Of a stretch of DNA of 19,031 bases, positions 504 to 17,835 are shown in pieces. The position numbers and the translations under genes are program-made. Origin of the DNA: an uncultured Oscillospiraceae bacterium (GTDB taxonomy: Bacteria; Bacillota; Clostridia; Oscillospirales; Oscillospiraceae); contig CAKTNP010000032.1 of the NCBI GenBank assembly GCA_934589155.1, forward strand, positions 1 through 19,031, read 5' to 3'. Each line of letters begins with the position of its first letter. Positions within the stretch are counted from its first letter, which is position 1. The notes under the pieces were generated by a model. The model was not told where the DNA came from. It ran no database searches and saw nothing but the letters and a program-made list of their open reading frames with translations.

Positions 504-512
504 AAGCGGACC

Positions 513-893
513 TCAGTCGGGGACGTACAGGGAGACCACATCCACTCGGATCACCGGGTACTTGCCCTCCACCGAAACATTGGCGGTATAGTCGTAGGAG
601 ACGGAAAGCTGATCCGTGACGTTCAGTTTATTGGTGCCGCCGGTGCCCGCCACCTGATTGTAGTACACGAAAAGCTCGTCGGTGGTGTCAAAATGGGAGT
701 CACCGTTGACAACCTTGCACCGAACGCTGCCGTTGTCCTCCAGCCGCAGGACCCGGACCACCAGGCCCGAGGCGGTGAGGGAATCGACCTTGTCCTTGAT
801 GCCGTTGATCGCGGAATGGATCCCGGTACAGCCGCTGAGCAGCAGGGCCGTCATGGTCAGGGCCAGCACCAGCGCTATCATCTTTTTCTTCAT
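513..893 (-). CDS. Small secreted lipoprotein of unknown function
   Basis: The chosen ATG at 893 gives 126 residues beginning MKKKMIALVLALTM and a lipobox LLSGC, so Cys22 is the predicted lipidated residue. An ATG 18 bases upstream lies in the ribosome binding site itself and is unlikely: AAGGAGG at about 901-907 sits at ideal spacing from 893. The mature part (about 104 residues) starts with a short amphipathic stretch (IHSAINGIKDKVDSL) and continues as a single small beta-rich domain with alternating VVRVLRLEDNGSVRCKVVN-type strands. I do not recognise the family. It lies just downstream of a near-consensus promoter and is followed within about 10 bases by the LURP-one-like gene. Confidence 0.8.
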   Translation of the reverse strand: MKKKMIALVLALTMTALLLSGCTGIHSAINGIKDKVDSLTASGLVVRVLRLEDNGSVRCKVVNGDSHFDTTDELFVYYNQVAGTGGTNKLNVTDQLSVSYDYTANVSVEGKYPVIRVDVVSLYVPD

Positions 894-958
894 AAAACCG
901 CCTCCTTGCACACTCTCTCTTTGATCCAGGATATGGACCGTGCAATTGCTATATACAC

Positions 959-987
959 AGCATACGCTGAATTCCGGATTCTGTCAA
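959..987 (-). promoter_or_regulatory. Sigma-70/SigA-type promoter for the lipoprotein-LURP unit
   Basis: On the minus strand TTGACA (982-987) is separated by 17 bases from TATGCT (959-964), a close match to the housekeeping consensus with optimal spacing. Transcription would start near 952, leaving a leader of about 60 bases before the ATG at 893. It shows that the two left-hand genes form a separate unit from the large operon. Confidence 0.8.
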
Positions 988-999
988 TGGGTTAAGTTC

Positions 1000-1013
1000 T
1001 TAAGAATTCTTAA
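1000..1013. promoter_or_regulatory. 14-bp perfect palindrome upstream of the promoter
   Basis: TTAAGAATTCTTAA reads the same on both strands. It ends 12 bases upstream of the -35 box of the lipoprotein promoter and is preceded in promoter orientation by more A/T sequence. It could be an operator for a dimeric regulator or simply part of an AT-rich UP element. A half-similar TTAAG/CTTAA motif lies beside it at 992-1004. Confidence 0.35.
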
Positions 1014-1054
1014 TTTTCCATTAAGCGGACGGAGCGCCGGAAAAAGGAGGAAAG

Positions 1055-1124
1055 AATAAAAAATACGGGCCTTTTTCACGGCTGTGGGGAGCGGGGAACT
1101 ACGCTCGGCCGAAAAAGGACCCGC
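1055..1124 (-). terminator. Intrinsic terminator of the ten-gene operon
   Basis: In minus-strand RNA, CGGGTCCTTTTTCGGC (about 1108-1123) pairs imperfectly with GCCGTGAAAAAGGCCCG (1066-1082) across a loop of about 25 bases, followed by TATTTTTTATTC. The stem starts about 10 bases after the stop codon of the S component. It separates the operon from the lipoprotein unit downstream. Confidence 0.7.
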
Positions 1125-1133
1125 ATAGGGGAA

Positions 1134-1814
1134 CTATATCCCGTATTTATCCAGCACCCGCTGGAGCTTCTTTCCAATGGGTTTTGCCAGGAGCAGCAGA
1201 AAGATAACATTGGACACGGCATAGATAAGAGTGAAACTGGCAGAGCTGACCAGAGCCGCCAGGTACCGGGAGAGTTGGAAGGTGCCGTCGGCCCAGAGTG
1301 CGGTCCACACGTCCATACACAGGGAAAACAGCACCCCGGCCAGAGCGCCGAACACGCAGAGGAAGATTCGGCGGCCCTTCAGCTGCCGGGCCAGGAGCCC
1401 GGCCAGAAATCCGATCAGGCCCCAGGTGAACATCTGAAATGGGGTCCAGGGTCCCTGGCCAAAGTAGAAATTGGAGATCACGGCGGAGAGAGCGCCAGTC
1501 AGGAATCCGGCCTCGCTGCCAAGATACATGGCCGTGATGATGACCATGGCGGTGACGGGTTTAAAGCCGGGCACCGCGTAGAACAGCATCCGTCCCAGAA
1601 CGGACAGGGCTGTCAGCACCGCAATGAGGATCAGCCGGGAGCCGGACTGAGTCTTTCGCTCAAAGGAGAGAAAGAAAGGAACGCAGGACAGTAGGGCCAC
1701 CGCCAGGGAGATGAAGGCGTACTGCCGGCCCCGGAACACCGTGGCCCCCAGCAGTACCACCAGGGGAATGCAGAGCAGAAAAACAAGATAGGCTGCGACG
1801 TGTTTTCGTTTCAT
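1134..1814 (-). CDS. ECF transporter S component (predicted corrinoid-type)
   Basis: A 226-residue, very hydrophobic membrane protein: two N-terminal helices (about 8-26 and 32-49), then a core of about five more (60-80, 86-110, 125-142, 150-170, 185-210). The stretch with FGQGPWTPFQMFTWGL (118-133), followed by GFLAGLLARQ, and the earlier KPVTAM and YLGSEAGFLTGALSA, are typical of ECF substrate-specific (S) components. The ATG at 1814 overlaps the TGA of the ATPase gene (ATGA, 1811-1814) and has AAGGAGAACCC upstream; an in-frame start further upstream would lie inside the ATPase gene. Canonical S components have six helices, so the extra N-terminal hydrophobic segment is notable. It does not look like CbiM (no His-rich N terminus), arguing against cobalt. 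Corrinoid specificity is inferred from the operon's cobalamin riboswitch. Confidence 0.85.
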   Translation of the reverse strand: MKRKHVAAYLVFLLCIPLVVLLGATVFRGRQYAFISLAVALLSCVPFFLSFERKTQSGSRLILIAVLTALSVLGRMLFYAVPGFKPVTAMVIITAMYLGSEAGFLTGALSAVISNFYFGQGPWTPFQMFTWGLIGFLAGLLARQLKGRRIFLCVFGALAGVLFSLCMDVWTALWADGTFQLSRYLAALVSSASFTLIYAVSNVIFLLLLAKPIGKKLQRVLDKYGI

Positions 1815-3466
1815 GGGTTCTCCTTCCCGCCGCACAGGGCTACCACCTCGTCACAGCGCACGGCGTTGGGGAACAGGCCTCGGGCGATGCGGCTGGCGGC
1901 GGTGGTATAGAAATGGTTGCCGGAGAAGAAGGCGTTGGGGGTGCCGTCGGAAATGATCTCGCCGTCAAAGAACAGGGTGCAGCGGTCCGCCACGGCGGCG
2001 GCAAACTCCACATCGTGGGTCACCAGGACGATGGTCCGTCCCTCGGCCCGGAGCCGGGACAGAAGGGCCGCCAGGCGCTCCTTAAAGTCGGCGTCCAGGC
2101 CCTTGGTGGGCTCGTCCATGAGCAGGAGCCGGGGCTCCGTCAGCAGGAGCTTGCCCAGGGCGCACTTTTGCTGTTCTCCGCCGCTGAGGTCCATGGGGTT
2201 CCGGTCCATGAGAGGCCCGATGCCCAGCTTTTCCGCCATGGCCTCCGCCAGGGCAGCCTGCTGCTCCTTCGGCGTATCCATGGCCTTGAGCATTTGCAGG
2301 TAGTCTCCCCGGACTGTGTCCTCCATGAATACGGTCTGGGGATTCTGGGGCAGCAGGGACAGCGTCTTCCGGTACAGACTGCCGTTTTTATACTCCTTCA
2401 GCTTTTTTCCCAGGACCCGTACCGTGCCCCGATAGGGCCGCTCCAGACCGGAGAGGATCGACAGCGTGGTGGTCTTGCCGCTGCCGTTGCCTCCCAGCAG
2501 GGCGAAGATCTCCCCCTGCCGGACGGTGAGCTCCAGGTTTCGTAGGACGTCGGCGCTGTCCTTTTCGTATCGAAACCAGGCGCCGGAGACCTCCAGGGCG
2601 GGCTCCGTCCGGGGTGGGGTCTTCTCCGGCACCAGGGTGCCCTTTCGGGTGGAGAAATTCTCCTCCAAAAATTCCCGGCCCTCCCGTACCGTCAGGGGGC
2701 AGGGGGCAGGGGAGGACAGGCCGGTCCAGATCCGGCTGGCACTGGGCAGGCCCAGGGCCATGGGGTGGCCCCGAAGGGCCTGGCATACGGCCCGTGGCGT
2801 GTCCCAAACAGGCTCCCGCTCCGGGTCCAGCACCAGCACCCGGTCCGCAATGGGGAACACGTCCTCCAACCGGTGCTCCGCCAGGAGAATGGTGAGGCCG
2901 AACTCCCGGTTCAGCTTTTGCAGGGTGGCGATGAAGTCCGCCGCCGCAATGGGATCCAACTGCCCCGTGGGCTCGTCCAGCAGCAGGACCCGGGGATTCA
3001 TGACCATGACGGAGGCCAGATTCAAAAGCTGTTTCTGGCCGCCGGAGAGCCGGTCCGTGTCCCGGTGATACCAATCCTGGATCCCAAAATAGCTGGCGGT
3101 CTCGCCCACCCGGCGGCGGATCTCCGCCGTGGGCAGTCCCAGATTCTCGAGACCAAAGGCCAGTTCGTGCCAAACCTTGTCCGTGACGATCTGTTCGTCG
3201 GGATTCTGGCGGACATAGCCGATCTCCTGGGCGCTGCGCCGGGGCTCCAGCCGGTCCAGGGGGCTGCCGTCATACAGGATCTGACCGCTCCGCTCCCCGT
3301 GGGGAGCCAGCTCTGGCTTCAGGAGCCGCAGAAGGGTGGTCTTTCCGCAGCCGGAGGGGCCGCAGAGCACCAGAAAGCTGCCCCGCTCCACGGAGAAGCT
3401 CAGGTCCCGGAGGATCCGCCGGTCGCCGTAGGCAAAATTCAGATTTTGGATCTGGAGTAATTCCAT
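1811..3466 (-). CDS. Fused double ATPase of the ECF transporter (EcfA-EcfA')
   Basis: A 551-residue protein with two ABC ATPase domains in one chain, powering the ECF importer. Domain 1: Walker A GPSGCGKTT (36-44), Q-loop near VRQNPDEQ (85-92), signature LSGGQ (140-144), Walker B LLLDEP (161-166), switch His198. Domain 2: Walker A GGNGSGKTT (325-333), LPQNPQ (372-377), signature LSGGE (427-431), Walker B LLLMDEP (446-452), switch His484. All catalytic elements are intact in both halves. ECF systems more often use two separate subunits; fusions are known in the family. A linker of about 70 residues (220-288) and a roughly 40-residue C-terminal tail lie outside the ATPase cores. The ATG at 3466, with GAGGAGACC upstream, lies inside the end of the EcfT gene (28-base overlap), and the stop overlaps the S component start. 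Confidence 0.93.
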   Translation of the reverse strand: MELLQIQNLNFAYGDRRILRDLSFSVERGSFLVLCGPSGCGKTTLLRLLKPELAPHGERSGQILYDGSPLDRLEPRRSAQEIGYVRQNPDEQIVTDKVWHELAFGLENLGLPTAEIRRRVGETASYFGIQDWYHRDTDRLSGGQKQLLNLASVMVMNPRVLLLDEPTGQLDPIAAADFIATLQKLNREFGLTILLAEHRLEDVFPIADRVLVLDPEREPVWDTPRAVCQALRGHPMALGLPSASRIWTGLSSPAPCPLTVREGREFLEENFSTRKGTLVPEKTPPRTEPALEVSGAWFRYEKDSADVLRNLELTVRQGEIFALLGGNGSGKTTTLSILSGLERPYRGTVRVLGKKLKEYKNGSLYRKTLSLLPQNPQTVFMEDTVRGDYLQMLKAMDTPKEQQAALAEAMAEKLGIGPLMDRNPMDLSGGEQQKCALGKLLLTEPRLLLMDEPTKGLDADFKERLAALLSRLRAEGRTIVLVTHDVEFAAAVADRCTLFFDGEIISDGTPNAFFSGNHFYTTAASRIARGLFPNAVRCDEVVALCGGKENP

Positions 3467-4320
3467 CGCAAGGTCTCCTCTGTTTCGATCAGTGCCGGGG
3501 CCAGGGAAAGAAGGCCGAAGGCAATATACTGGACCAGGGCCAGGGGCCGGGTGTCCAGTGCGGTGATGGCGGGATAGAAGGAAAAGCGGCCCAGATCCAG
3601 GACAGAGGTGCCAAAATACAGCCCCATGGCCAGGATCGTGGCCCCCAGCAGCAGAAGATCCCTGCCGGTGAAATGGTAGTTGGAATAGCTGGTGTGGCCG
3701 GACAGACCGTAGCCCCGGGCCCGCATGGAGCGGCTGACCTCCACGGCGTTCTCCAGGGACCAGCCCACCAGGGAGGAAAACACCATGAGCTTGGACCGGA
3801 TCCGGTCAAAGCGGCTGTCGGAGGCGTACAGGCCCATGGTTTTCTGGGCCCGTTCCACCTTTCCGGCCTGCCGCTTCAGCATGGGCACATACCGCAGGGC
3901 CATGGACAGCACCAGCGACAGGCTGGGGATCACCCGGCCGAAGAGATACAGGAACTTGTCCGTGGACATGACCTTGTTATAGCATTTGCACCAGAGAATG
4001 ACGGATACCACCGTGAGACCCGTGAAAAAGCCGTACACGATGGCCTCCAGGGTCACGGGGTTGCCGTTCAGGAAGAACAGGGGGGTCACGCCGTTGTGGG
4101 AGAACAGGGGATTGGTCAGCGTCACAAGGACCAGCAGACCAAGATAAAAGCCCAGATCCTCCCGGCGCTCCCGGGGCTCCGACAGGAGCCAGGCGAAGCT
4201 GCCGCCGCCCAGAAGAGCCAGGATCAGAATGACGGGGTTCCCCGAAAACATGGCCGCCAGCAGCACCCCGAGAAAATAAAGCATCAGGGCAGCAGGATGA
4301 AAATTGGAAAAAAACTTCAT
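3439..4320 (-). CDS. ECF transporter transmembrane scaffold (EcfT/CbiQ family)
   Basis: A 293-residue membrane protein that links the two ATPase domains to the S component. N-terminal helices run from about 9 to 110; then a long amphipathic cytosolic region with RYVPMLKRQAGKVERAQKTMG (143-163) and the family's signature SRSMRARGYG (196-205), whose Ala-Arg-Gly element is the coupling motif that docks on the ATPases; last helices at about 218-240 and 260-280. The start at 4320 is chosen over one 54 bases upstream because it has GGAGGAG just before it and overlaps the TGA of the DUF4430 gene as ATGA (4317-4320). The order EcfT, EcfA-EcfA', S with overlaps indicates one complex. Confidence 0.9.
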   Translation of the reverse strand: MKFFSNFHPAALMLYFLGVLLAAMFSGNPVILILALLGGGSFAWLLSEPRERREDLGFYLGLLVLVTLTNPLFSHNGVTPLFFLNGNPVTLEAIVYGFFTGLTVVSVILWCKCYNKVMSTDKFLYLFGRVIPSLSLVLSMALRYVPMLKRQAGKVERAQKTMGLYASDSRFDRIRSKLMVFSSLVGWSLENAVEVSRSMRARGYGLSGHTSYSNYHFTGRDLLLLGATILAMGLYFGTSVLDLGRFSFYPAITALDTRPLALVQYIAFGLLSLAPALIETEETLRWNYSRSKI

Positions 4321-4862
4321 GGCTCCTCCATGACAAAACCCACGTCTTGTCCCAGGTCGCAGGTGTAGGACCACTGGATCACATCGCCGTCCTGCAGCAC
4401 GTAATCCGAGCAGCTATAATTCGGAAATTCTCCGTTAACGGTGTAGACCCAGCCGGAGGTGGGGCCGCAGGAGAACTCATACAGATAGTGGATTCCCTCC
4501 ACATACACACTGCCCAAGGAATTCTGGTCTGCCCCCTGGTACTCGAATTGGATCCGATTGGCCCGGACCGCCCGATACAGCACGTCAAAGACCGTGTCAC
4601 CGGGGCGCAGTACGTATTCCGTGGGGGGCAGGATTACCCCGTCCGGCGGAACGTATTCCTCCGACCGCAGGGATTTATTGAGCTTGTCGTAGTTTTTCAG
4701 GATGGTGTCGCAGCGAATGGAAAGGGTGACGGTCTCCGAATCCGGCCCTACATCCTCCAGGTGGGCGAGGTAATACTCGTCCACGGACTGGACATGCACG
4801 CCCTGGAACAGAATCACAAGGGCCAGGACGATGGCAAATAGAATGAGAATGTCCTTTTTCAT
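4317..4862 (-). CDS. Small membrane-anchored DUF4430 (transcobalamin C-terminal-like) protein
   Basis: 181 residues: a short N-terminal hydrophobic anchor (about 4-22, no lipobox Cys), then one extracellular domain. The segment from VTLSIRCDTIL (45-55) through PGDTVFDVLYRA (87-98) to SGWVYTVNGEFPNYS (136-150) and LQDGDVIQWSYTCDLG (156-171) is the DUF4430 pattern, with the conserved W-Y-V-N-G turn and the closing D-G-D-x-I-x-W strand. Four Cys (51, 132, 151, 168) could form disulfides. DUF4430 is the family of the C-terminal beta domain of animal transcobalamin and intrinsic factor, which closes over the vitamin. The gene is coupled by ATGA to EcfT, so this is the best candidate for a dedicated substrate-capture subunit of the transporter (inference). 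AAGGAGGCGG precedes the ATG. Confidence 0.85.
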   Translation of the reverse strand: MKKDILILFAIVLALVILFQGVHVQSVDEYYLAHLEDVGPDSETVTLSIRCDTILKNYDKLNKSLRSEEYVPPDGVILPPTEYVLRPGDTVFDVLYRAVRANRIQFEYQGADQNSLGSVYVEGIHYLYEFSCGPTSGWVYTVNGEFPNYSCSDYVLQDGDVIQWSYTCDLGQDVGFVMEEP

Positions 4863-4895
4863 AAGACCGCCTCCTTTCCGAGGGAATTCCGAGAA

Positions 4896-7800
4896 TTATT
4901 TCAGCAGGCGGTAAAGGAAGCACACCACCTGGCCCCTGGTACAGGTTTTGTCCGGGCTGAAGTGGGTGGTGTCGGTACCGTAGACCACGCCGTTTTCCGC
5001 GGCCCAAAGGACCGCGTCATAATAGTATGCGCCGCCGGTCACATCCCGGAAGGGATTGGCCGTCCCGTGGCTGGGATTTCCCTGATACCGGTGCAGGAAG
5101 CACACCACCTGAGCCCGGGTGCAGGAGGCATTGGGACTGAAGCGGTTGGCGCTGGTTCCGTAGACGATGCCGTTTTCCGCCGCCCAAAGCACCGCCTTAT
5201 AATAATACGAATCGGCGGAAACGTCAACAAAGGGATTTTTTGTGGTGCTGGGCTCCGGCTTTCCGGCGGCCCGCCACAGAAAGGCCACCACCTGGGCCCG
5301 GGTGCAGGTGCCGTTGGGGGAGAAGTGGGTGGCGTTGGTGCCGGCGGTGATCTCATGATTCACTGCCCACAGCACGGCATCGTAATAGTAGTCCGACCGT
5401 GCCACATCCACAAAGGGATTCTGAACCGGGGCGGACCAATTGGGATCCTTGGCTCCGCAGCGGGCGCAGGTCCCGTTTTCGTAGCTGTGGCCCAGCGCCG
5501 GAGTCTCCGCCCGCCGCTGGGAATAGCCGCAGACGGCGCAGGTGTCGGTGGTATAGCCCTGCTCCGTGCAGGTGGGATCGGTGACGGCGGAGGTGAAGTC
5601 GTGGGCCTGCCAGTCCTCCTGGGCCTTGCCGCAGAGGGTGCAGACGTGGCGGTGCCCCTGGGCGCCGGTCTCCAGCTTGCTGTATTCGTGGGCGGAAACC
5701 GTCAGCTCCACGGCCCCAGTGGGGGCATAGTAAGTCTGACCGGCCTTCCCGTCCCGGTCGCCGTACATGGTGTAGGGGAATACGATCTGGAACATGCTGT
5801 CGTCAGGAGTCAGAGGATCCGGGGACCAGGTTACATAGTCCGTCACGTCCCGGCTCACGCCGTTGGAATACCGGGCGGTGACGGTCATACCGTCAGGATC
5901 GAAGGCCTCGCCCTCATGGTAATCGGTCTTCCGGGGTTGGCTGACTTCCAGGGTGTCGATAGTGGGGCCAACGGCCATGAGATAGGCCGAGTCGTTTTTG
6001 AAGTAGATCACGCCGTCCTCGTCCACAATGGGGCTGCAAATGGCATACTGGGCCTGGGCTCCGCTGGGGGTAAAGAGCACGGAGGGGGTGTCGTAGGTCA
6101 CTTCCTTGCCGCCGACGAAGGCGGTCTCCTGGGTCAGAAGATCCGGTTCCGTCTGGCCGGGCCGGTCCCGCAGGACCCGGAGCTTGCCGGGCAGATAGTT
6201 GTCGAAGAAATAGACATAGACGGCGCCCTCCTGGTCCTCATAGGCGGTGGTGAGCAGGCCGCTGGACTGGGGATAGCCTTGGGTCCGGACGGTATAAGCG
6301 ATGGACAGGTCGGCAAGGTCGATAACGGTGATATTATGCCCCGAATAGGGGGAGAACTGTCCTGCGCCGGACACGCCGATGTAGGCCCGCCCGTTGTAAA
6401 CGGTGGGGGTGCTGGTGCTCATGGGCGGATTTTCGCCGTCCTCCAAATAATTGTACAGCCGCAGGCTCCGGAAGGACCCGGGGGTGAAGCTGCCGTCGGA
6501 TTCCGCATGGACGGTGTAGAAATAGCCGCCTTTGGTGGTGAAGTAGGCGGTACCGGCTCCGTCTCCGTCGGGCACGAAGGCAACGGAACTGCGGGCGTCG
6601 CCGGGATCCGGCAGGTCTATGGAATCCAGCAGGCGGCCGGTCATGGGATCCAGGGACAGGAACCGGCCGAAGCCCGTGGTGTAGCCCGCCTTGCCGTCGT
6701 CGGTGCCCACAAGAAGATAGTCGTCGCAGACATAGGCGCCGGCCCAGTAGAAACCGCCGGGGGAGGTAAAGCGCCAGGTGGCCAGCTTCTGTTCGGAGGA
6801 GCTGTCGGGATCCTCATCGGTGACGGACAGACACACGAAGTTGGCATCGCCTACCTCGCTGTTCCAGAAGCCGGTGTAGAGATAGCCGTTGCGGTAGACC
6901 AGAGGGCAGTTGGGCTGGCCGCCCAGGGGATCCCGGTAGAGCCACAGGGATTCCAGGGTCACGGCGTCAAAGGCCTGGACGCAGCCGTTGGCCAGACCCA
7001 CGAAGATCATGCCCGCGGCGTAGGTGGGGGAGTTGATGGCAAAGCTGGAATTGTGGTCCATTTTGCCGGTGGCTACGACTTCGCCCGTGATCTTGTCTAC
7101 CTTGTACAGGGTCTTGCCGGCGTAGACGTAGAGGTAGCCGTCTACCAGAATGGGGCAGCCGCAGGCCTCGGAGCCGTAGCCTTCTCCCAGCTGGGTGGCC
7201 CAGTAGAGGGCGGCGTCCTCCGCCCGGGTGGGGGTGGAGGCGTCTACCACGCCGTTGTTGCATTCGTCGGCTCGGAACCCCGGCCATTGGGCGGAAAGAT
7301 CCTGAAGCCGGGTGTTTTCTTTGGCCTTAGTCAGGGACACGGCCACGGCGGCGGGGGATTCCGGGGCAATGTAGCCCGTCTTTTCCTGTCCCACATAACC
7401 GGCGCAGGTGACGGTGTAGGTGTAGCTGTCTCCGGGGATCAGCAGGAAACTGCCGTCGGAGCTCCGGTCCACGCGCTGTCCGGTCTGGTCGTGGGTGAGG
7501 AACACGTTGGCCCCGGCAGGGGTGACCCGGAAGGTCACGGCCACGGGGGGCAGCTTCTGTACATGGATGGTGTAGGTCCCGGGCTGAGCGTTTTCGTCGC
7601 TGTGGCAGACGGTGATCACAATGTCCTCCTGGGCCTTGGCGGTGTCAAGAGACAGGCCCAGCCTGGACAGGCTGTCCTGCCGCTGGCCGTTGACCATGGC
7701 CCAGTAGCCGCCGGAGTGGGGGGCGGAACCGTCGCTGCTGACATATTCTCCGCTGAGGGTCAGGTTTTCGGTGCTGTTCAGCACCTTGACCCAGTATTCC

Positions 7801-9872: not shown

Positions 9873-9885
9873 AAATAGGACCTCC

Positions 9886-11880
9886 TTAATAGACGAAAAG
9901 TACGAAGCGGTAATAGAAACGCCGCAAGAGATTCCAACGGTTTTTGCAGAGGGCCAGGACCCGGGCGGCGTAGTCCCGCATTTGGGCTTTTTCCTCGGGC
10001 CCCATGGGGTGGGGGCTGAACATGGCCTCCCGGTTCAGACGCTCCGCCTCGGGATCCGGGATCTCCGCGCCGGGGCAGTGGGCCAGAAGGTATTGGGCGT
10101 AGCCGTAATACAGAGCAACGGCCTGAGCCCCGGAGGCGGACTTCATCCGAGCAAGAGCCCGGCGGAGCTTTCGGCGACCCAGAATTTCCCAGGCGGCCAG
10201 GGCCAGGATCAGGAGCCCCAGCAGCCACCACAGGAGCCGCAGAGGGGCCTCCTCCGGGGAGGCCTCCGGCTCCCGGTCGGGCTGTTCCACCACCGGAGGC
10301 GGCAGCTCCGTGTTTTCATAGTGCTTTTGGTCCGTGTCGGACCCGGCGGGAAGTTCCTCGTCGTCTCGGTAGCCCGGCGTGACCTCAAAGGGAATCCAGC
10401 CTACGCCCTCCAAATAGTATTCCGTCCAGGCGTGGGCGTGATTTTCGTCCAAGGTGACGGTCTGGCCCGGGGCCAGGCTCTGGGCCTCCTCGGCGGAGAG
10501 GAAATACCCCTCCACATACCGGGCGGGAACGCCGCAGTACCGCAGCATCAGGGTGGCGGCGGCGGCATAGTGGACGCTGTAGCCCCGCCGGGTGACGGAG
10601 GTCAGATATTGGAGAAAGTCCATGGATCCGTTCTGGGTGTCCACGGTCTCGTCATAGGTGAGATTGCCGTCCAGACCGTCCAGGATCCTCTGACGGATCT
10701 CTGCCAGGGTCATGGCTTGGGCCTCGCTGCCCAGCAGAGAGCGAACGGCCTGGGCGGCCTCCGCCGTGATCTGAAGATCCTGGGCCCGGGCGTAATCGGC
10801 ATATGCGGATTCCAGGGCCAGATAGGAGCGCTGGGTCTCCTGGCCCCGGGAAAGGGCCGCCTGGGCCGCATACCACTGGGGCACACTGCCGGGGTAGTAG
10901 GTTAAGGTCCAGCTTCCATCGTGGGCCCGGGTGACAGCGTCCCCCAGAGCCATGGAATCCAGAAGCCCGGTGTCCGCCAGGGCGTAGGGAAGATAGATCC
11001 GGGCGGAGCAGGCGGAGCGGTTCACGATGGTCATGGCGGCGGGAGCCTCCCCGCTCGTCAGAGCCAGAGCCTGTCCCACGGCGCTTTGCCCGTAGAAGCC
11101 CTCCCGGTGGAGCCAGTAGAACAGATCCTCCGATTCCGCAAGAGTATCCCCGGACAGGGGTTCCCAGGCGCTGCCCGTGTAGGTCTCGCCCACAAAGCCC
11201 CGAAGATAGAGCTTCTGGGGGACCTCCATGGTCACATCCAGGGCGGCGGTGCCGTTTTTGTTCCAGGCGGAGAGATTTTGGAGTTGCCCTTCCGGCATGG
11301 AGTTGCCGGGGCTGTCATAGCGGACCCGGTGCCAGGCAGAGGACAGGGAATGGGCAAGGTCGGACTGGGGCAGGGCACCGGACAGGGGCAGAAGACCGAG
11401 ACCCAGGCTCAGGCACAGGATCAGCGCCAGGCCGGAGCGCCAGGTGAGGGCACCGGAGGCGGCGTACAAGTGGAACACCAGGGTCAGCACTAGGCACAGA
11501 ACCAGGGTCCAGCCGGGGGAAAGAAGCCCCAGACACAAGGCGGCGGCGCCCAGACTCCAGCACAGCGCCGGGAACCAGGCCCGTTTTTGCAGGAATGCGG
11601 CGGCAAGGCCGAAGAACAGCAGAAGCCCCAGGGGCAGCAGGATATAGATCAGATTTTCCTCCGTACCGCCGGACAGGGGCAGGTGCAGGATCCCGGTGCG
11701 CCGGGTGAGCCAGTCCAGTCCGCGGTTCATGAGGGCGATGAGGCCGGAATGCACCCGGCTCCCCAGAGCCAGACAATAGATTGTAAGTCCTGCCAGCAGG
11801 ACAACGGAGGCAAGGCCCAGACTGGGACCCGGCCTGTGCTTTTTGGGAGGATAGAGAACAAAGCCTGGGGTTTGTTTCAT
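9886..11880 (-). CDS. Membrane transglutaminase-fold protein, catalytic Cys replaced by Ser
   Basis: 664 residues from the ATG at 11880 (GGAG eight bases upstream; an upstream in-frame TTG at 11886 is less likely). About five N-terminal helices (22-40, 77-97, 103-120, 123-141, 150-166), an extracellular region with a transglutaminase-like core, then a C-terminal helix (about 557-575) and a charged cytosolic tail. This layout resembles the TgpA-type transglutaminase proteins that sit beside MoxR and DUF58 genes. In the core, the motif that normally reads G-x-C-x-x-[FY]-A is GYSVHYAAAATL, so Ser435 (AGC, 10576-10578) occupies the catalytic Cys position. His483 in HAHAWTEYY is kept, and Glu499 in PFEVTPGY is in the usual Asp place. 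The protein may be a non-catalytic, binding-type member. It follows the DUF58 gene by two bases. Confidence 0.85.
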   Translation of the reverse strand: MKQTPGFVLYPPKKHRPGPSLGLASVVLLAGLTIYCLALGSRVHSGLIALMNRGLDWLTRRTGILHLPLSGGTEENLIYILLPLGLLLFFGLAAAFLQKRAWFPALCWSLGAAALCLGLLSPGWTLVLCLVLTLVFHLYAASGALTWRSGLALILCLSLGLGLLPLSGALPQSDLAHSLSSAWHRVRYDSPGNSMPEGQLQNLSAWNKNGTAALDVTMEVPQKLYLRGFVGETYTGSAWEPLSGDTLAESEDLFYWLHREGFYGQSAVGQALALTSGEAPAAMTIVNRSACSARIYLPYALADTGLLDSMALGDAVTRAHDGSWTLTYYPGSVPQWYAAQAALSRGQETQRSYLALESAYADYARAQDLQITAEAAQAVRSLLGSEAQAMTLAEIRQRILDGLDGNLTYDETVDTQNGSMDFLQYLTSVTRRGYSVHYAAAATLMLRYCGVPARYVEGYFLSAEEAQSLAPGQTVTLDENHAHAWTEYYLEGVGWIPFEVTPGYRDDEELPAGSDTDQKHYENTELPPPVVEQPDREPEASPEEAPLRLLWWLLGLLILALAAWEILGRRKLRRALARMKSASGAQAVALYYGYAQYLLAHCPGAEIPDPEAERLNREAMFSPHPMGPEEKAQMRDYAARVLALCKNRWNLLRRFYYRFVLFVY

Positions 11881-11882
11881 GG

Positions 11883-12980
11883 TCAAAGCTCCAAATGCCG
11901 GAGGACCTCCGGATAGTTCTGAGACGTATAGGTTACGGTGGGATAGGCGTCAAAGCCTTCTCCGCCGCACAGGATCAGGGTCGTATTCGCCGTGCCTGTG
12001 AATAAAGACAGGGCAGGGGAGACCCGGGCGCCGAAGTACAGGATCTTGCCGAAGCCTGCCGCGCCCTTTTCCGCTGTGTATCGGGGCAGAGGGTCCTCCC
12101 CGGCGGGAGCGCCCCGCAGAACGGCGGGAATGGCGGCAAGCAGGTCGTCAATGGTGTTGATTTCCAGGAAGGTGAGACCACCCTCCCGGCAAAAGCCCAT
12201 GGTAAAGGCATAACCCTGTTGACACAGAGCCTGGCACAGTGAGAAATAGACTTCGGCCTGGGCGTCCAGCGCTTCGCCCCGCTTTTCCCAAAAGGCAAGC
12301 AGGGAGCGGCTCACGGGAAGACTGGCCTCCCGGACCATAAGATCGTCCTGCTTGGCCGACAGCTTCCAGTGGATGCTGCGGAGGCTGTCTCCGGGCTGAT
12401 ATTCCCGGTATTGATAGGGCTCCGTGGGATCAGGGCCCCGGCGGTCCGGCGCGTAGTCCTCGCTGTCCAGGGTCATGGCCTGGGGGACGGTCAGCCGGAT
12501 CTCCGGCTGGAAGGTGTCCGGCAGTACCGTCAGGCGGCTGCGGGCCTCTGTGGGGAGCCGAAGGGGCAGAAAGCCCACAAGCCCCCGGAGCCAGGCCCTT
12601 TCGGCCAGGACCTCGACCTCGCCGCAGTGGGTGCAGGCGAAGGCGAAATCGCCGGTCTCCCGGAGCCGGATCCGGGCAGTCTCCCCGGTAAGGCGGTTGG
12701 TGATCCGGAGCTTCAGGCCCACGGGACCGGTGGGGAACCGGGTCTCTCCCTTGACCTGGATCCGGCCGGAGATCTCCTCGCCCTTTGCGGCGGTTGGGGG
12801 CAGCGTGACCCGGAGGCTTATCTTTTTCTGCTGGCCCAGGGCCAGCAGCCAGGAAAACAGAAGAAACAGGGCCTGGCCTGCCATGGCGCACAGGGCCAAG
12901 ACGGAGCCCGTGAAGGCAAAGACCAGACAAAGGACCAAGAATAGGCCAAGATAAAGCAAAAAGGAAACCAGGGCGCTCAT
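11883..12980 (-). CDS. DUF58 domain protein
   Basis: 365 residues. Two N-terminal hydrophobic helices (about 3-24 and 27-48) are followed by a beta-rich extracellular or peripheral part and the DUF58 signature YQYREYQPGDSLRSIHWKLS (189-208) continuing to AKQDDLMVREAS. After this, DUF58 proteins carry a von Willebrand A-like fold; here the usual aspartate-rich first strand is replaced by SRSLLAFWEKRGE, so a metal-binding MIDAS site is not obvious. DUF58 proteins typically pair with a MoxR ATPase, which is the gene directly upstream: its TGA overlaps this ATG (12977-12980), and GGAGC precedes the start. The pair likely acts as a chaperone-like assembly module for the adjacent membrane protein. 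Confidence 0.9.
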   Translation of the reverse strand: MSALVSFLLYLGLFLVLCLVFAFTGSVLALCAMAGQALFLLFSWLLALGQQKKISLRVTLPPTAAKGEEISGRIQVKGETRFPTGPVGLKLRITNRLTGETARIRLRETGDFAFACTHCGEVEVLAERAWLRGLVGFLPLRLPTEARSRLTVLPDTFQPEIRLTVPQAMTLDSEDYAPDRRGPDPTEPYQYREYQPGDSLRSIHWKLSAKQDDLMVREASLPVSRSLLAFWEKRGEALDAQAEVYFSLCQALCQQGYAFTMGFCREGGLTFLEINTIDDLLAAIPAVLRGAPAGEDPLPRYTAEKGAAGFGKILYFGARVSPALSLFTGTANTTLILCGGEGFDAYPTVTYTSQNYPEVLRHLEL

Positions 12981-13936
12981 TTTGTAAAGCTCCGGCTGTT
13001 GGGCTGGGGAGTTTTGTCCAGCAGTTCTGTCAGCAGCTGCTCCGGGGTGTAGTCATGAAGCCGGGCCTTGGGGCTCAGCACCAGCCGGTGGGCGCAGACA
13101 TCGGGGAGTACCAGGGCCACGTCCTGAGGGATCACATAGTCCCGGCCCTGGAGAAAAGCCCAGGCCTTAGCGGCCCGGCACAGGGCTAGGGCACCCCGGG
13201 GGCTGACGCCCAAGAGGATATAGGGGTGCTTCCGGGTGGCGTCCATGAGCTCTGCCGTGTAATCATAGACGCCGTCGGCAATGTAAACATTGGACACGGT
13301 GTCGATGAGGGCCAGCAGGGTATTCCGGTCCGTTACGGGCTTCAAATTGTCCAGCGGGTCCGAATGATGCCGGTCCTTCATGATCTCCACCTGGCTCTTC
13401 CGGTCGGGATAGCCCATGCTCAGCCGGATCAGGAACCGGTCCAGCTGGGAGGAGGGCAGCATCTGGGTCCCGGCGGAGCCTACGGGGTTCTCCGTGGCCA
13501 GGACCACAAAGGGGGACTGCAGATCCCGGGTCTGGCCGTCTACGGTGACCCGCCGCTCCTCCATGGCCTCCAGCAGGGCGGACTGGGTCTTGGCGGAGGT
13601 CCGGTTGATCTCGTCCGCCAGCAGTAGGTTCGTCATGACGGCGCCGGGCTGATAGCGGAGCTGGCCCGTGGCCTTGTCATAGACGGAGAAGCCGACAATG
13701 TCCGAGGGCATGGTGTCCGGAGTGAACTGTATCCGCCGGGTGTCCAGCCCCAGGACCCGGGCGAAGGACAGGGCCAGGGTGGTCTTGCCCACGCCGGGCA
13801 CGTCCTCCAGCAGAATGTGGCCCTTGGCCAGAATGGCCATCAGGACCTTTTGAATGGCGGCGTCTTTGCCGAGGATCACGGTCTTGACCTGGGACTGGAT
13901 GTCCTGGGCCAGGGCGTACATTTCGTTCATGTTCAT
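12977..13936 (-). CDS. MoxR family AAA+ ATPase
   Basis: 319 residues, cytosolic. Walker A within EDVPGVGKTT (44-53), the MoxR-typical QFTPDTMPSDIVGF (70-83), Walker B LLLADEINR (104-112), SAKTQSALLEAMEE (114-127), sensor-1 ATENP (147-151) and the DRFLIRL segment (166-172) are all intact. MoxR ATPases are thought to remodel or activate partner complexes, commonly with DUF58 and VWA-domain proteins. The ATG at 13936 directly abuts the TGA of the lipoprotein gene (13937-13939), with GGGAG five bases upstream; an in-frame ATG six bases later is a possible alternative. What makes it unusual is the setting: a cobalamin-riboswitch operon ending in an ECF transporter. Confidence 0.95.
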   Translation of the reverse strand: MNMNEMYALAQDIQSQVKTVILGKDAAIQKVLMAILAKGHILLEDVPGVGKTTLALSFARVLGLDTRRIQFTPDTMPSDIVGFSVYDKATGQLRYQPGAVMTNLLLADEINRTSAKTQSALLEAMEERRVTVDGQTRDLQSPFVVLATENPVGSAGTQMLPSSQLDRFLIRLSMGYPDRKSQVEIMKDRHHSDPLDNLKPVTDRNTLLALIDTVSNVYIADGVYDYTAELMDATRKHPYILLGVSPRGALALCRAAKAWAFLQGRDYVIPQDVALVLPDVCAHRLVLSPKARLHDYTPEQLLTELLDKTPQPNSRSFTK

Positions 13937-14923
13937 TCACGCTCCCTGGGTGAAATCATAAAGCCGCAGGCCATTCTGGGCCTTTTGCTGGGCCAGCAGA
14001 GCCAGCATGGCCTGCTCTGTGGCGATGACGTTGCCTTTGCCGTCCTGCTCCGTGTGGCAGTAGCTGCCGTCGGAGAGCCGGAACTGGTCCAGACCCGTCA
14101 GCAGGGTCCGTTCACCCCGGGTGAACCGGGGGTCGGTCTCCGGGTCAAGGCCCAGGGCATAGAGGGCAATGAGAACCTGGCAGATGGTCTCGGCGTTTTC
14201 GGCGCCGTAGGCGGCATAGGTGCACCGGTCCGTCATTTGATCGGACAGATAGGACAGGGCGGACTCGACGGTCTCCTTGGCCTCGTCATAGGGCGCAAGA
14301 GCCTGCAGGGCCATGGCGGTAATGTCCGGATCCGAGCTGCCGGACACAAGGCCGAAGCCGCCGTCCGGTTCTTGCTGGGCCAGAATGGCGGAGAGGATCT
14401 CCTCCCGGCTGTGGGCGGCCCCGGCGGGCACCTCATAGGCACCGGCATCCAGGGTGATGAGGGCGAAGATCAGGCTGTTGAGACCCTGGACGCCCAGGTC
14501 GCCGTCATAGCTATAGGTCCCGTCCGCGATCAGATTCACGGAATTTCCCTGGGCATCGGTGCCGAAGGCGGTGGGGTCGCCCCCCAGGGCCAGCACCGTC
14601 AGAGCGATTCGGTGGTATTCCGTGGGCTTATAGGCGTCCAGGGCGCCGTTTTCTCCATAGCGGTCCGTGACGGACTGCGCCATGGCGGCAAGATAGCCGT
14701 CGTAGTCGTCCTGGGCTCCGCTGAGCTTCAGGGCCATGGCCATCCAGTCAAAGGAGGAGTTCCCGGCAGGGCATACGTCCTGATGGGACAGGATCTTTCC
14801 CCGGACCCCCAGCAGGGACCGGAAGCTGGCGGCGGACTGGTCCAGCCCCGACAGGGAGCCGGTGCAGCCGGCCAGAAGCACGACGCATAAGAGAAGGCAC
14901 AGGGGGTGCAGCAAACGTTTCAT
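13937..14923 (-). CDS. Lipoprotein with alpha/alpha-toroid (terpenoid cyclase/transcobalamin N-domain-like) repeats
   Basis: 328 residues with a signal peptide and lipobox LLAGC (Cys20), so it is tethered to the outer face of the membrane. The mature part is a series of helical-hairpin repeats: SSFDWMAMALKLSG (56-69), TEYHRIALTVLALGGDP (101-117), LGVQGLNSLIFALITLDAG (143-161), DGGFGLVSGSSDPDITAMALQAL (187-209), AETICQVLIALYALGLDP (244-261) and DGSYCHTEQDG then ATEQAMLALLAQQ (301-313). The D-G-[GS]-[FY] turns followed by a small-residue-rich helix are the pattern of squalene cyclase/prenyltransferase-type toroids. No catalytic DxDD motif is visible, so it is probably a binding protein. Transcobalamin's N-terminal domain has this fold, which fits the riboswitch-controlled context. 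It overlaps the first DUF4430 gene by ATGA (14920-14923). Confidence 0.8.
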   Translation of the reverse strand: MKRLLHPLCLLLCVVLLAGCTGSLSGLDQSAASFRSLLGVRGKILSHQDVCPAGNSSFDWMAMALKLSGAQDDYDGYLAAMAQSVTDRYGENGALDAYKPTEYHRIALTVLALGGDPTAFGTDAQGNSVNLIADGTYSYDGDLGVQGLNSLIFALITLDAGAYEVPAGAAHSREEILSAILAQQEPDGGFGLVSGSSDPDITAMALQALAPYDEAKETVESALSYLSDQMTDRCTYAAYGAENAETICQVLIALYALGLDPETDPRFTRGERTLLTGLDQFRLSDGSYCHTEQDGKGNVIATEQAMLALLAQQKAQNGLRLYDFTQGA

Positions 14924-16806
14924 AGCAGTTCATCCTTTTTTCGTTTATGAGATTCCTGAGAAGGGGAGGGCTCCGACGGTTTCGTAGGCTCCGTGGGAGG
15001 CTCCGTAGGTTCTGTGGGAGGGTCTGTGGGTTCCGTCGGGGGTTCCGTGGGAGGCTCGGTAGGCGGCTCCGTGGGCTCCGGGCCCGTGGCGGGCAGGACC
15101 TCCCGGGTCACCTCGCCGCACTTGGAGCAGGTTCTTTCAATGTATCCGTCCTGGGTGTCCGTGGGTTCTACCCGGGCGGTTTCCTGATAATCGTGGGACA
15201 GGGGGGTAAAGACCCCGTCCCGCCAGATCCCGCAGTAGCTGGACAGGCTGCCGTACTGGCCGCCGGTGGAGCCGTAGCCGTCAATGTCCTTGCCCCAGGA
15301 CAGGGTAAAGCGCAGGGTGATCACGTCTCCGTCGGAGGGGAACCCGCCGTCCATGCCGAAACCGGGATAGGCACCGTTGACGTCATACATCCATCCGGAG
15401 CCCCGGGTGTAGTCCATTTCGCCCAGACTGTCCGGGTCCGACTGGCCTGTGAGGCTGATGCCGTCCCGGAGGATCAGCTGCCACAGCCGGGGATCCACCT
15501 CGGCCCCGTACATCATGTCGCCCCGGGTGAGCCGCCGGAGGTAGAAACCACCGTTTTCTGCTGGGGTCCCGGCGTAGCCGGGGGTATAGCCGCAGAGATC
15601 CAGGGCCCGCAGCACCACCTGGGCGTAGGTCTCGCCCTGGGTGACTGTGAGAGTTTCCTCGTCCAGGATCCCAAGGCCAAGGGTGGTGGCGTCCACCCGG
15701 ACCGTGGCCGAGCCGATGGGATCGCCCTTGGATACGGTCTCATAGGTGATGGACAGGGTCCGGCAGGTGGAGTTGCCCTCGTCGTCCCAGGCCAGGATTT
15801 TTACGATATAGGTCCGGGAGTCGCCCATCTCCGGGGCGGAAAACCGCAGGGTGTACTCAAAGCCGCCCCGGGCGTTTCCGGTGGGGTTGGTCAGCAGAGT
15901 TCCGTCCAGCCAGACCCGCAGGTGATTTTCATAAATGGGCTGGCCTCCGGTGTCGCCCCCGGTTCGGGCGGAGACCCGGAGAATGAATTTTTGGACCCGA
16001 ATAGGATCCGTGACCCCGTCCCGGTTGGTGGTGATGACGGGGGGCGCATCGCCGATCTCGGGGTGGTCCTCGTCGGCCAGATCCGCCTGATAGGAGACAT
16101 AGTAGGTCAAGGGAGAGCCCAGGACCCTGCCGTTCTGATAGAGGTACAGCGTCAGCTTATAGCTGGTGTTCAGGGCCATTTTCAGGGCGTAGGAGCCGGA
16201 CTCCGGCGTCAGGAGCTGGCCGTTGTTGGCGGTGGAGCGTTGCTCCTTCCAGTAGACCCTGACGGAAAGACCTGTGCCGCCCGCGCCGTAGGCATAGAAC
16301 CGGAGGGTGTCGTTTTCCAGCTCCTTGGGGGTCCAGGCTCGATTCTGCAGGTTCGTGACGATGTGGGGCTCCGTCTCCGGGTCCCGGGGCTCCGTAGGGC
16401 CGGGGTTCGGCACCGTGGGGGAGGTAGGATCGGTCCCCGGGGTGGAGGGGTCCGGCTGGCTGCCGGTGGCGTCCGGAGCGGTGGGCTCCGTCACGGAGGC
16501 TGTGGCGTCGGGAACGGGATCCTGGGTCCGGGTCTCCGGCGGCTCCGTTTCCTCCTGGGGCTGGGTGGGCTCCGTCTCCGGTTCTGTTTCCGGCTCCGTG
16601 GGGGGCTCGGTGTCATCCCGGTCCCCGGTACCGCTGCCGCCGGACCGGGCCATGGATTCCGGCGTCAGCCGGGAGGGCTCCGGATCGATGGGGTTCTCCG
16701 GGATCCGGGTCCCGGCGCCCGCCAGGGACAGGACCGCGCCCAGGATCAAAACCAGGGCCAGCAGCGCCGCCAGGACACCGAACAGCCCCTTTTTATTTCG
16801 CTTCAT
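14920..16806 (-). CDS. Large membrane-anchored DUF4430 (transcobalamin C-terminal-like) protein
   Basis: 628 residues and the first gene after the riboswitch. N-terminal basic residues and one hydrophobic helix (8-30, no lipobox Cys) form a signal anchor. A Thr/Pro/Glu-rich linker (about 62-148) follows, then two beta-rich segments (about 150-245, 255-360; the second with RVWLDGTLL and TYIVKILAWDDEGN, Ig-like) and a DUF4430 domain (about 364-507) with GETYAQVVLRALDLCG, SGWMYDVNGAYPGFG and SDGDVITLRFTLSWG. A short Cx2C segment (TCSKCGEV, 559-566) and a TEPP-rich tail (about 573-612) ending in KRKKDELL complete it. No LPxTG sorting signal is present. The ATG at 16806 has GAGGT about eight bases upstream; an in-frame TTG at 16827 is an alternative start. 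DUF4430 suggests corrinoid or small-ligand binding. Confidence 0.85.
   Translation of the reverse strand: MKRNKKGLFGVLAALLALVLILGAVLSLAGAGTRIPENPIDPEPSRLTPESMARSGGSGTGDRDDTEPPTEPETEPETEPTQPQEETEPPETRTQDPVPDATASVTEPTAPDATGSQPDPSTPGTDPTSPTVPNPGPTEPRDPETEPHIVTNLQNRAWTPKELENDTLRFYAYGAGGTGLSVRVYWKEQRSTANNGQLLTPESGSYALKMALNTSYKLTLYLYQNGRVLGSPLTYYVSYQADLADEDHPEIGDAPPVITTNRDGVTDPIRVQKFILRVSARTGGDTGGQPIYENHLRVWLDGTLLTNPTGNARGGFEYTLRFSAPEMGDSRTYIVKILAWDDEGNSTCRTLSITYETVSKGDPIGSATVRVDATTLGLGILDEETLTVTQGETYAQVVLRALDLCGYTPGYAGTPAENGGFYLRRLTRGDMMYGAEVDPRLWQLILRDGISLTGQSDPDSLGEMDYTRGSGWMYDVNGAYPGFGMDGGFPSDGDVITLRFTLSWGKDIDGYGSTGGQYGSLSSYCGIWRDGVFTPLSHDYQETARVEPTDTQDGYIERTCSKCGEVTREVLPATGPEPTEPPTEPPTEPPTEPTDPPTEPTEPPTEPTKPSEPSPSQESHKRKKDELL
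14971..15078 (-). repeat. TEPP-rich degenerate tandem repeat in the C-terminal tail
   Basis: Codons 577-612 of the large DUF4430 gene repeat the pattern T-E-P-P or T-E-P-T with small variations, giving DNA units close to GGCTCCGTGGGAG on the plus strand. Such Pro/Thr/Glu-rich tracts are extended wall-spanning linkers. A looser tract of the same composition lies at about 16363-16608 in the same gene. Copy number could vary between strains. Confidence 0.7.
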
Positions 16807-16845
16807 GTGTGAAACCTCGCTTGACAAAAACAGCCTGGAAAGGCA

Positions 16846-16886
16846 TAAAAAAAGAACAGCCGTGCAGCAGGATGCAGCGTCCGTTC
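16846..16886 (-). terminator. Riboswitch expression-platform terminator
   Basis: In minus-strand RNA, GAACGGACGCTGCA pairs with TGCACGGCTGTTC (hairpin 16854-16886; one bulged base, one mismatch, six-base loop), followed directly by seven T (16847-16853). It lies between the cobalamin aptamer and the first start codon. This arrangement predicts premature termination when cobalamin is bound. I did not resolve a convincing antiterminator, although CGTCC near 16919-16924 can pair with the GGACG of the terminator's 5' arm. Confidence 0.75.
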
Positions 16887-16930
16887 CTTAGGGAATGTAT
16901 GCACCGTCTGCCCATAACTCGTGGACGGAG

Positions 16931-17114
16931 CAATTTCAAGCAGGTCTTCTGACTTGCGCGTCTGCGGTCCGGCGCTGCCTTCTCGGGTCGCCCCAATGGC
17001 TGACTTTCGTCCTGCGCCGGCCTCTGCGCTTACAGCGGCGGTACCGTCCGGGAATCTCACCCGGTTGTCTATTCTCCCTCCGGACCCCATAGGGCCGGGA
17101 GGGCACTTGAAATG
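16931..17114 (-). ncRNA. Cobalamin (B12) riboswitch aptamer
   Basis: The minus strand carries the hallmark elements in order. P1 is formed by ATTTCAAG (17106-17113) and CTTGAAAT (16933-16940). The conserved core contains CCGGGTGAGATTCCCGG, ACGGTACCGCCGCTGTAAGC (17027-17064), close to the family consensus GGTGAAATCCC...CGGTCCCGCCACTGTAA. AAGTCAGCCATTGGGG and a GC-rich arm follow, and the closing B12-box AGTCAGAAGACCTGC (16940-16954) ends at P1. It begins about 12 bases after the predicted transcription start and precedes the DUF4430 gene by about 125 bases. It is the main evidence that the operon responds to cobalamin, normally by switching off when the coenzyme is abundant. Confidence 0.93.
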
Positions 17115-17132
17115 TCCTTATTTTGCATCATA

Positions 17133-17161
17133 AGTATAGCAGGAAAGGCCCATTCTGTCAA
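17133..17161 (-). promoter_or_regulatory. Promoter of the cobalamin-riboswitch operon
   Basis: TTGACA (17156-17161) and TATACT (17133-17138) on the minus strand are separated by 17 bases, near-consensus for SigA. Transcription would start near 17126, just before P1 of the riboswitch. A strong constitutive promoter combined with a terminating riboswitch is the usual arrangement for corrinoid uptake genes. Confidence 0.85.
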
Positions 17162-17441
17162 TGAATCCCGGAATACTTCCGGAAGAATCCAAGGCAGCGT
17201 ATCGTAAAGGGCCGCGAAGTTTCCTTCACGGCCCTTTGACGTCAAATGCAGATATAAGTCTTTTGCTTTCCGTTACTATACTTAAAAACGCTTATAATGG
17301 TTTAATGAGTTTTGCCCTTGTAAAACATCGGAGCGGGATAGAGAGGGGGATATAATACGGGAACTTTCTTTTTTCTATTCTGCTTCTGGTCTAGTGGAGA
17401 CTTTCTGCCCTATGAAGAAGGATTTTAATTCAATATTACGA
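17162..17441. other. Intergenic region between the operon promoter and the XRE gene
   Basis: No gene is supported here. It holds a hairpin AAAGGGCCG...CGGCCCTTT (17206-17237) without a clear T-run on either side, possibly a weak bidirectional terminator, and the left copy of a 22-bp direct repeat (17277-17298). Base composition shifts from GC-rich to AT-rich at about 17240. A lone TATAAT at about 17353 on the plus strand has no matching -35 box and no downstream plus-strand gene. Confidence 0.5.
17277..17298. repeat. Left copy of 22-bp direct repeat
   Basis: The sequence starts TATACTTAAAAACG and ends TTATAAT, with C at the one variable position. It matches 18620-18641 at 21 of 22 positions in the same orientation. 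The two copies bracket the AT-rich XRE/lipoprotein pair, as an attachment-site duplication would, but no integrase is present between them. Confidence 0.6.
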
Positions 17442-17765: not shown

Positions 17766-17796
17766 TAAGTACCACCCCATAAGTATATTTTATAGG

Positions 17797-17807
17797 GAAT
17801 AGTATTC
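17797..17807. promoter_or_regulatory. Short inverted repeat, candidate operator
   Basis: GAATA-G-TATTC is a perfect 5-bp inverted repeat around one base. It lies about 32 bases upstream of the XRE gene start, close to a possible minus-strand -10 region (TATAAA at about 17790-17795). This is a plausible site for autoregulation by the XRE protein; the evidence is only its symmetry and position. Confidence 0.3.
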
Positions 17808-17820
17808 GCTTTTAAGTTCA

Positions 17821-17835
17821 TAATAATCCTTATTA
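17821..17835. promoter_or_regulatory. Inverted repeat between divergent genes, candidate operator
   Basis: TAATAA-TCC-TTATTA is a perfect 6-bp inverted repeat with a 3-base centre, ending two bases upstream of the -35 box of the plus-strand lipoprotein promoter. Its placement between the divergent genes makes it a candidate binding site for the XRE regulator. AT-rich sequence makes chance symmetry possible. Confidence 0.35.

Follow-up and report, generated by a model that had tools for sequence, protein, structure and literature searches.

An operon behind a cobalamin riboswitch in an uncultured Oscillospiraceae bacterium, predicted to encode surface capture and import of corrinoids

Bacterial domains resembling the animal carriers of vitamin B12 have been described by Burroughs et al. 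(2007, PMC1796856), whose available text reports transcobalamin-like SLBB (DUF4430) domains, their fusions to toroids and their operons with CbiO and CbiQ genes, proposes scavenging of B12 as the likely role, and suggests that the animal carriers were acquired from low-GC Gram-positive bacteria. Here, we analyse a stretch of 19,031 nucleotides from an uncultured Oscillospiraceae bacterium (GCA_934589155.1, contig CAKTNP010000032.1, positions 1 to 19,031), hereafter called the window. Its ten minus-strand genes behind a cobalamin riboswitch probably constitute a scavenging operon for B12 or other corrinoids, in which a surface clamp would feed an energy-coupling factor (ECF) importer with a CbrT-like S component.

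The systems of 2007 share with the window the same domains, the ECF neighbours and the proposed scavenging of B12 or a precursor at the Gram-positive surface. A second SLBB paralogue in the operon and a beta-propeller fusion are also noted there. However, the part of that paper available to us mentions no riboswitch, MoxR, DUF58, transglutaminase or S-layer, all found in the window operon, and names no S component; moreover, toroid and DUF4430 are separate genes in the window. The preliminary description of this DNA had placed the surface and membrane-linked proteins outside the usual lists of B12 uptake genes, which does not hold for DUF4430 and the toroid, already proposed for this role in 2007. 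The core idea was thus proposed then, and the fuller set of parts and its predicted riboswitch control extend it. No publication on the full ten-gene operon was found in the open-access literature. In the accessible text of PMC9963975, one protein is called 'Additional lipoprotein component of putative cobalamin ECF transporter', and a DUF4430 gene is reported next to rtpR.

For the transporter, the closest system is ECF-CbrT of Lactobacillus delbrueckii (PDB 6FNP), according to the accessible text of PMC5997447 a demonstrated importer of cobalamin and cobinamide, whose CbrT-type S component is the nearest in sequence to that of the window. In Lactobacillus, the ECF module is common to several S components, whereas the window encodes its own EcfT and a fused EcfA-A' and, unlike the L. 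delbrueckii system, has surface proteins and a riboswitch in the ECF operon. Surface capture of B12 in gut bacteria is also reported for lipoproteins of Bacteroides (PMC6143338 and PMC8941943, in the portions available), but these are unrelated proteins of a Gram-negative organism.

Layout and control elements of the operon

A complete RF00174 aptamer (model 1-189) exceeding the curated cut-off was found on the minus strand at 17125-16922, where the preliminary description had placed a cobalamin aptamer at 16931-17114. The control elements and genes, in the direction of transcription, are the following.

17133..17161 (-): promoter-like site TTGACA-17-TATACT with TG before the -10 (extended -10); consensus scan, 11/12, by itself no evidence of function
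16922..17125 (-): cobalamin riboswitch aptamer, RF00174; 96.9 bits, E 1.9e-23, gathering score 31.5
16848..16889 (-): terminator-like hairpin with T run between aptamer and first gene, putative expression platform; fold z -2.1
14920..16803 (-): D1, long DUF4430 protein; PF14478 E 1.1e-5, partial; TTG start at 16827 possible
13937..14923 (-): TOR, alpha/alpha-toroid protein with lipobox-like LLAGC; predicted structure
12977..13936 (-): MoxR-family AAA+ ATPase (AAA_3); PF07726 E 4e-56, PF17863 E 4.3e-27
11883..12980 (-): DUF58 protein; PF01882 E 5.6e-7
9886..11886 (-): transglutaminase-fold protein with hydrophobic N-terminal part; PF01841 E 9.2e-19
4896..9872 (-): SLH giant, 1658 aa, with cadherin-like, PQQ beta-propeller, Big_3 and three SLH domains; Pfam
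4317..4862 (-): D7, short DUF4430 protein with N-terminal hydrophobic segment; PF14478 E 8.7e-19
3439..4374 (-): EcfT transmembrane component, CbiQ family; PF02361 E 5.8e-10; internal ATG near 4320 also possible
1811..3466 (-): EcfA-EcfA' double ATPase, single chain; PF00005, two stretches, E 1.1e-62
1134..1835 (-): ECF S component, CbrT-like; PF07155/PF12822, PDB match 6fnp_A
1053..1126 (-): intrinsic terminator 3' of the last gene; fold z -4.0, then T run

According to the table of open reading frames (ORFs), with start codons picked by inspection, all ten ORFs are tightly packed on the minus strand between the riboswitch and a strong terminator. D1 and the toroid gene, MoxR and DUF58, and DUF58 and the transglutaminase gene each overlap by 4 bp, the toroid and MoxR genes abut, and the three ECF genes overlap. 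The description of all junctions as overlapping or abutting therefore stands save for gaps of 13 bp ahead of the SLH giant and 33 bp ahead of the short DUF4430 gene, the latter being the operon maximum. Of the elements described ahead of the genes, the aptamer was recovered, together with a promoter-like site and a terminator-like platform. Shuffled sequences scored as well as the platform hairpin (~16889-16848) in 5/200 cases and as the operon-end hairpin (~1126-1053) in 0/200. The promoter scan is weak by itself, because the window holds 14 such consensus sites against a mean of 5.7 in shuffles.

The domains named in the preliminary description (two DUF4430 proteins, MoxR, DUF58, transglutaminase, SLH giant and ECF trio) agree with Pfam. 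PF14478 (DUF4430) matched D7 with 68.2 bits and D1 with 26.2 bits (cut-off 23.8); D1 has a hydrophobic segment at its N-terminus and stretches rich in Thr, Pro and Glu. The toroid match in Pfam was below threshold, and the structure model is a confident alpha/alpha-toroid, in line with the toroid lipoprotein announced earlier. As had been claimed, the last three genes encode a complete ECF set (Pfam, TIGR04520) of EcfT, two ATPase domains and an S component; the double ATPase reached 325.5 bits with TIGR04520 (cut-off 315). Among solved structures, the S component matched best 6fnp_A (E 7e-13), the sole other match being 4hzu_S (E 0.036). Since EcfT and the fused ATPase pair adjoin the S component, the transporter looks from its gene content like a self-contained ECF module.

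Riboswitch linkage and gene content in relatives

The relatives consisted of 80 loci from 80 assemblies, nearly all recorded as Bacillota, taken as the best 80 of 215 loci confirmed in a toroid-alignment scan of genome contigs. Picked through the toroid, they are a non-random sample in which the frequency of the toroid itself is uninformative. In 44/80 loci, a system gene is preceded on its coding strand by RF00174 at or above the gathering score. Eleven loci with a contig end at most 1 kb from the first gene were set aside, which leaves 44 of 69 evaluable loci; the chance expectation, calculated from each assembly's own riboswitch density, is 0.40 loci with RF00174 within 10 kb. For 16 assemblies, the riboswitch ahead of the operon was the sole RF00174 found.

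Position and strand decided to which locus a whole-assembly Rfam match belonged. Among the 44 positives, 14 were obtained by Rfam in locus coordinates, 29 have positions that agree with a match of a covariance model, R1 (29/29), and the remaining one, L045, has its RF00174 1.8 kb upstream of the first gene, outside the fetched locus, and was placed by overlap. At E<=1, all 57 matches of R1, 11 of which formed its training set, share the strand of the system genes (57/57; L068 has one per divergent set). Loci that lacked a strong R1 match were scanned with Rfam over their whole length, which revealed RF00174 in 0/24 loci of three batches and in 2/7 and 3/9 loci of two others. R1 matches in L053 and L055, unconfirmed by Rfam, were left out of the count, and sub-threshold RF00174 matches in L005, L032 and L079 were excluded. 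A loose riboswitch motif scan, which returned many false sites at three substitutions, was replaced by the covariance model and Rfam. The preliminary description had raised the case of relatives carrying other effector signals; the whole-locus Rfam scans detected no other effector riboswitch ahead of system genes, and two c-di-AMP riboswitches in L048 and L074 lie on the opposite strand.

Using a match at E<=1e-4 as criterion, the 80 loci contain long DUF4430 in 64 cases, short DUF4430 in 68, EcfT in 54, the S component in 53, the SLH giant in 32, MoxR in 24, transglutaminase in 22 and DUF58 in 20. Recurrent orders are D1-toroid-D7-T-A-S, D1-toroid-MoxR-DUF58-transglutaminase-SLH and a union of the ECF and MoxR parts that lacks the giant, as in Siminovitchia (L013), Kurthia (L028, with no S match) and Syntrophaceticus (L039). 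DUF4430, toroid and SLH occur in a single chain in 5/6 of the fused relatives scanned, and the single chains of L064 and L068 further hold a cadherin-like domain and a PQQ propeller. Because the same kinds of domain are fused with DUF4430 and toroid in these relatives, the SLH giant can be tied to the clamp.

Some loci display arrangements of their own. In L049, three RF00174 copies at 1260-3517 are spaced by ~1030 bases, and a short DUF4430-like ORF follows each of the first two, an arrangement suggestive of tandem duplication; a fourth, weaker riboswitch precedes the ECF genes (29.8 bits with R1, 43.9 bits with RF00174). Two divergent back-to-back cobalamin riboswitches at 7132-7608 of L068 precede a D7-ECF set and a DUF4430-propeller-toroid-SLH gene, respectively. 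The sub-threshold RF00174 of L079 (6994-7128, 27.3 bits) lies just upstream of the toroid gene (TOR at 7316), which stands behind an ATPase-S-MoxR-DUF58-transglutaminase row. In Desulfosporosinus (L010, 14926-20278), a second toroid-EcfT-ATPase-S set directly follows the first T-A pair. The D1-toroid-MoxR-DUF58-transglutaminase-SLH order is also present in L034, on a contig labelled Coriobacteriaceae (Actinomycetota), by transfer or misbinning. Toroid, DUF4430, ECF and MoxR are kept in three Ruminococcus-type loci (L036, L044, L047), which may have another regulation, as RF00174 was not found in their assemblies.

Resemblance to animal B12 carriers and alternative explanations

Animal intrinsic factor and transcobalamin are built of two domains, a toroid and DUF4430. 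Both matched in one ORF in 30/80 loci, DUF4430 being near complete in 18 of them and the toroid coming first in 16, as in the animal carriers. In the AlphaFold2 model of one such natural fusion from a relative (P0121, from L056), the Foldseek PDB ranks 1-9 were all transcobalamin, intrinsic factor or haptocorrin (E 3.7e-6 to 5.1e-5), followed by a GH105 protein (9.7e-5); residues 33-656 of the model aligned with 347/378 residues of intrinsic factor (2pmv) at 3.7 A over both domains. This carrier-like fold is that of the relative's fusion, and the toroid and DUF4430 of the window are separate chains. Human intrinsic factor, transcobalamin and haptocorrin likewise combine a toroid with a DUF4430-type C-terminal domain, so named in the available text of PMC4350170. 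Unlike them, the window proteins are bacterial, consist of two chains and are probably surface-attached, and their sequence similarity to the carriers is not significant.

Corrinoid capture and import, as put forward in the preliminary description, is the best reading of the operon, well supported by the riboswitch linkage, by an S component whose nearest solved relative is CbrT and by the intrinsic-factor-like pairing of toroid and DUF4430. A more specific version is tentative and, in our estimate, somewhat less probable than its negation. It sees in these proteins a split intrinsic factor, with two separate chains (the toroid lipoprotein and a DUF4430 protein anchored in the membrane) closing on B12 at the cell surface, display by the S-layer giant, dedicated maturation by MoxR, DUF58 and transglutaminase, and a switch that responds to B12 shortage.

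Several observations weigh against the capture reading. RF00174 is missing ahead of the system genes in 25/69 evaluable loci; most but not all relatives retain it. No RF00174 was detected anywhere in 10/80 assemblies, eight of them with evaluable loci (L016, L036, L044, L047, L048, L060, L069, L074); whole-locus Rfam scans of these eight agree. This absence is not strict, because no more than 48 candidates are scored in each assembly by the whole-assembly search. An EcfT gene is present in 7 of the 8. In sequence profiles, the likeness of toroid and DUF4430 to the animal carriers was not significant: PF01122 (Cobalamin_bind) matched neither the window toroid nor any of 104 domains (0/104) and 1/50 close homologues, and neither the short nor the long DUF4430 protein had a significant match when its sequence was searched against the PDB. 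Finally, the consensus scan gave a promoter-like site (10/12) at 5227-5199, within the SLH gene and upstream of the D7/ECF part. No second internal promoter, such as the preliminary description had considered, is shown, and this weak candidate could give the ECF part some transcription of its own.

That site ahead of D7 is also in keeping with a transcript shared by two systems. One would be a B12 importer made of D7, EcfT, EcfA-A' and S, perhaps with the toroid and D1; the other, a general surface module of MoxR, DUF58, transglutaminase and the SLH giant, would owe its B12 regulation to its position alone. MoxR-DUF58-transglutaminase is a general cassette: L097 and L098, from two of the same assemblies, hold it, and the 14-15 kb fetched there contain neither a toroid nor a DUF4430 match. 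For the PFNA cluster of bifidobacteria, the available text of PMC8430577 describes MoxR ATPase, DUF58 and transglutaminase genes beside a gene for a large protein of the cell surface. That cluster differs from the window by a Ser/Thr kinase and an FN3 protein and by a proposed role in host contact, and no B12 gene is mentioned in the text at hand. A MoxR match is absent in 56/80 loci. In the other 24, however, which span Clostridia, Bacilli (L013, L028) and the contig labelled Coriobacteriaceae, MoxR adjoins toroid, D1 or ECF genes, and in L006, L022 and L033 RF00174 is directly followed by D1-toroid-MoxR-DUF58-transglutaminase with no ECF gene in the fetched stretch. The chains of L064 and L068 that unite DUF4430, propeller, toroid and SLH also argue against a separation. 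In a MoxR tree, from which the 86-aa MoxR of L025 was dropped and in which L099 (context unknown) was left unlabelled, one branch separates the 24 MoxRs of B12 operons from 15 paralogues (1 change, shuffle mean 12.1), this branch being weakly supported (40/92, 36% of bootstrap trees). Moreover, the MoxR that best matched that of the window was the operon copy in 20 of the 22 assemblies compared, drawn from the 24 loci with a MoxR match (exceptions G036, G044). We regard two separate systems as rather unlikely, though the most serious of the alternatives. The accessible part of a study on tandem riboswitches (PMC12452182) names a transglutaminase under c-di-GMP riboswitches, not cobalamin.

The other alternatives concern what is bound or made. 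It is improbable that the importer carries, instead of complete B12, cobalt, cobinamide or some precursor of B12, for example a lower-ligand base. EcfT and EcfA do fall in the CbiQ/CbiO families, CbrT also takes cobinamide (PMC5997447, as far as available), and a cobalt importer of C. difficile is likewise preceded by a cobalamin riboswitch (accessible text of PMC11477304); but a Pfam scan gave CbiM/CbiN matches in 0/10 operon proteins, the S component is CbrT-like, and the predicted clamp resembles carriers of whole cobalamin. It is less probable still that the toroid is an enzyme, a terpene cyclase or prenyltransferase, and that the product of the operon is a lipid under B12 regulation. In sequence profiles, the top matches are squalene-hopene cyclases and drimenyl diphosphate synthase, some homologues are labelled terpene cyclase/mutase or prenyltransferase/squalene oxidase repeat protein, and structure comparison indicates that the toroid fold by itself does not separate carriers from enzymes. 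Against this, the toroid has a lipoprotein-type signal, its relatives are fused to DUF4430 domains, the fusion model places B12 carriers above cyclases in Foldseek, and terpene or prenyl pathway genes were 0 among the window proteins scanned. With Pfam terpene cyclase families, the window toroid reached 16.1 bits (SQHop_cyclase_C), below the cut-off of 26.1.

Flanking DNA, proposed mechanism and significance

The G+C content of the operon is 57-66% in 1-kb steps and that of the DNA beyond 17 kb is 36-39%. The value falls from about 65% within the operon to this level just upstream of the riboswitch, and either the operon or the adjoining DNA may be an acquisition. The low-G+C flank (17001-19031), just upstream of the riboswitch, carries an HTH gene at 17442-17780 (-) and, at 17903-18553 (+), an ORF with a lipoprotein-like start and no Pfam match. 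A stretch at 18552-18634 (-) matches the sraA sRNA family below threshold (38.2 vs 56 bits); it includes a GC-rich hairpin where the neighbouring ORF ends and may be no more than a terminator. Downstream of the operon, a gene at 33-503 (-) encodes a LURP-one-related (LOR) protein (PF04525 E 1.1e-12).

The corrinoid-capture reading of the operon suggests the following mechanism. At low adenosylcobalamin, the terminator would not form and the operon genes would be made. A clamp of two chains, the toroid lipoprotein and one of the DUF4430 proteins (probably D7, anchored in the membrane), would close on a corrinoid from two sides, much as the alpha and beta domains do within the single chain of intrinsic factor or transcobalamin. 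D1 and the SLH protein may hold this clamp, or further B12-binding domains such as perhaps the beta-propeller, in the wall and S-layer. BtuG of Bacteroides is a beta-propeller. The corrinoid would then pass from the clamp to the CbrT-like S component, and the ECF module would drive its passage through the membrane. MoxR, DUF58 and the transglutaminase-fold protein would form a module that matures or assembles the surface proteins, which is the least certain step; both this role and the participation of all ten genes in B12 uptake are what we infer from the operon.

The locus offers a testable Gram-positive system for surface capture of B12, with regulation, transporter, clamp and scaffold predicted on one transcript, and would link proteins labelled DUF4430, terpene cyclase, MoxR or DUF58 to vitamin uptake. 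It also bears on the origin of animal intrinsic factor and transcobalamin, ascribed in the available text of Burroughs et al. (PMC1796856) to transfer from low-GC Gram-positive bacteria. If the split intrinsic factor is true, the B12 carriers of animals would stem from systems of this kind, which in the gut would compete with the intrinsic factor of the host.

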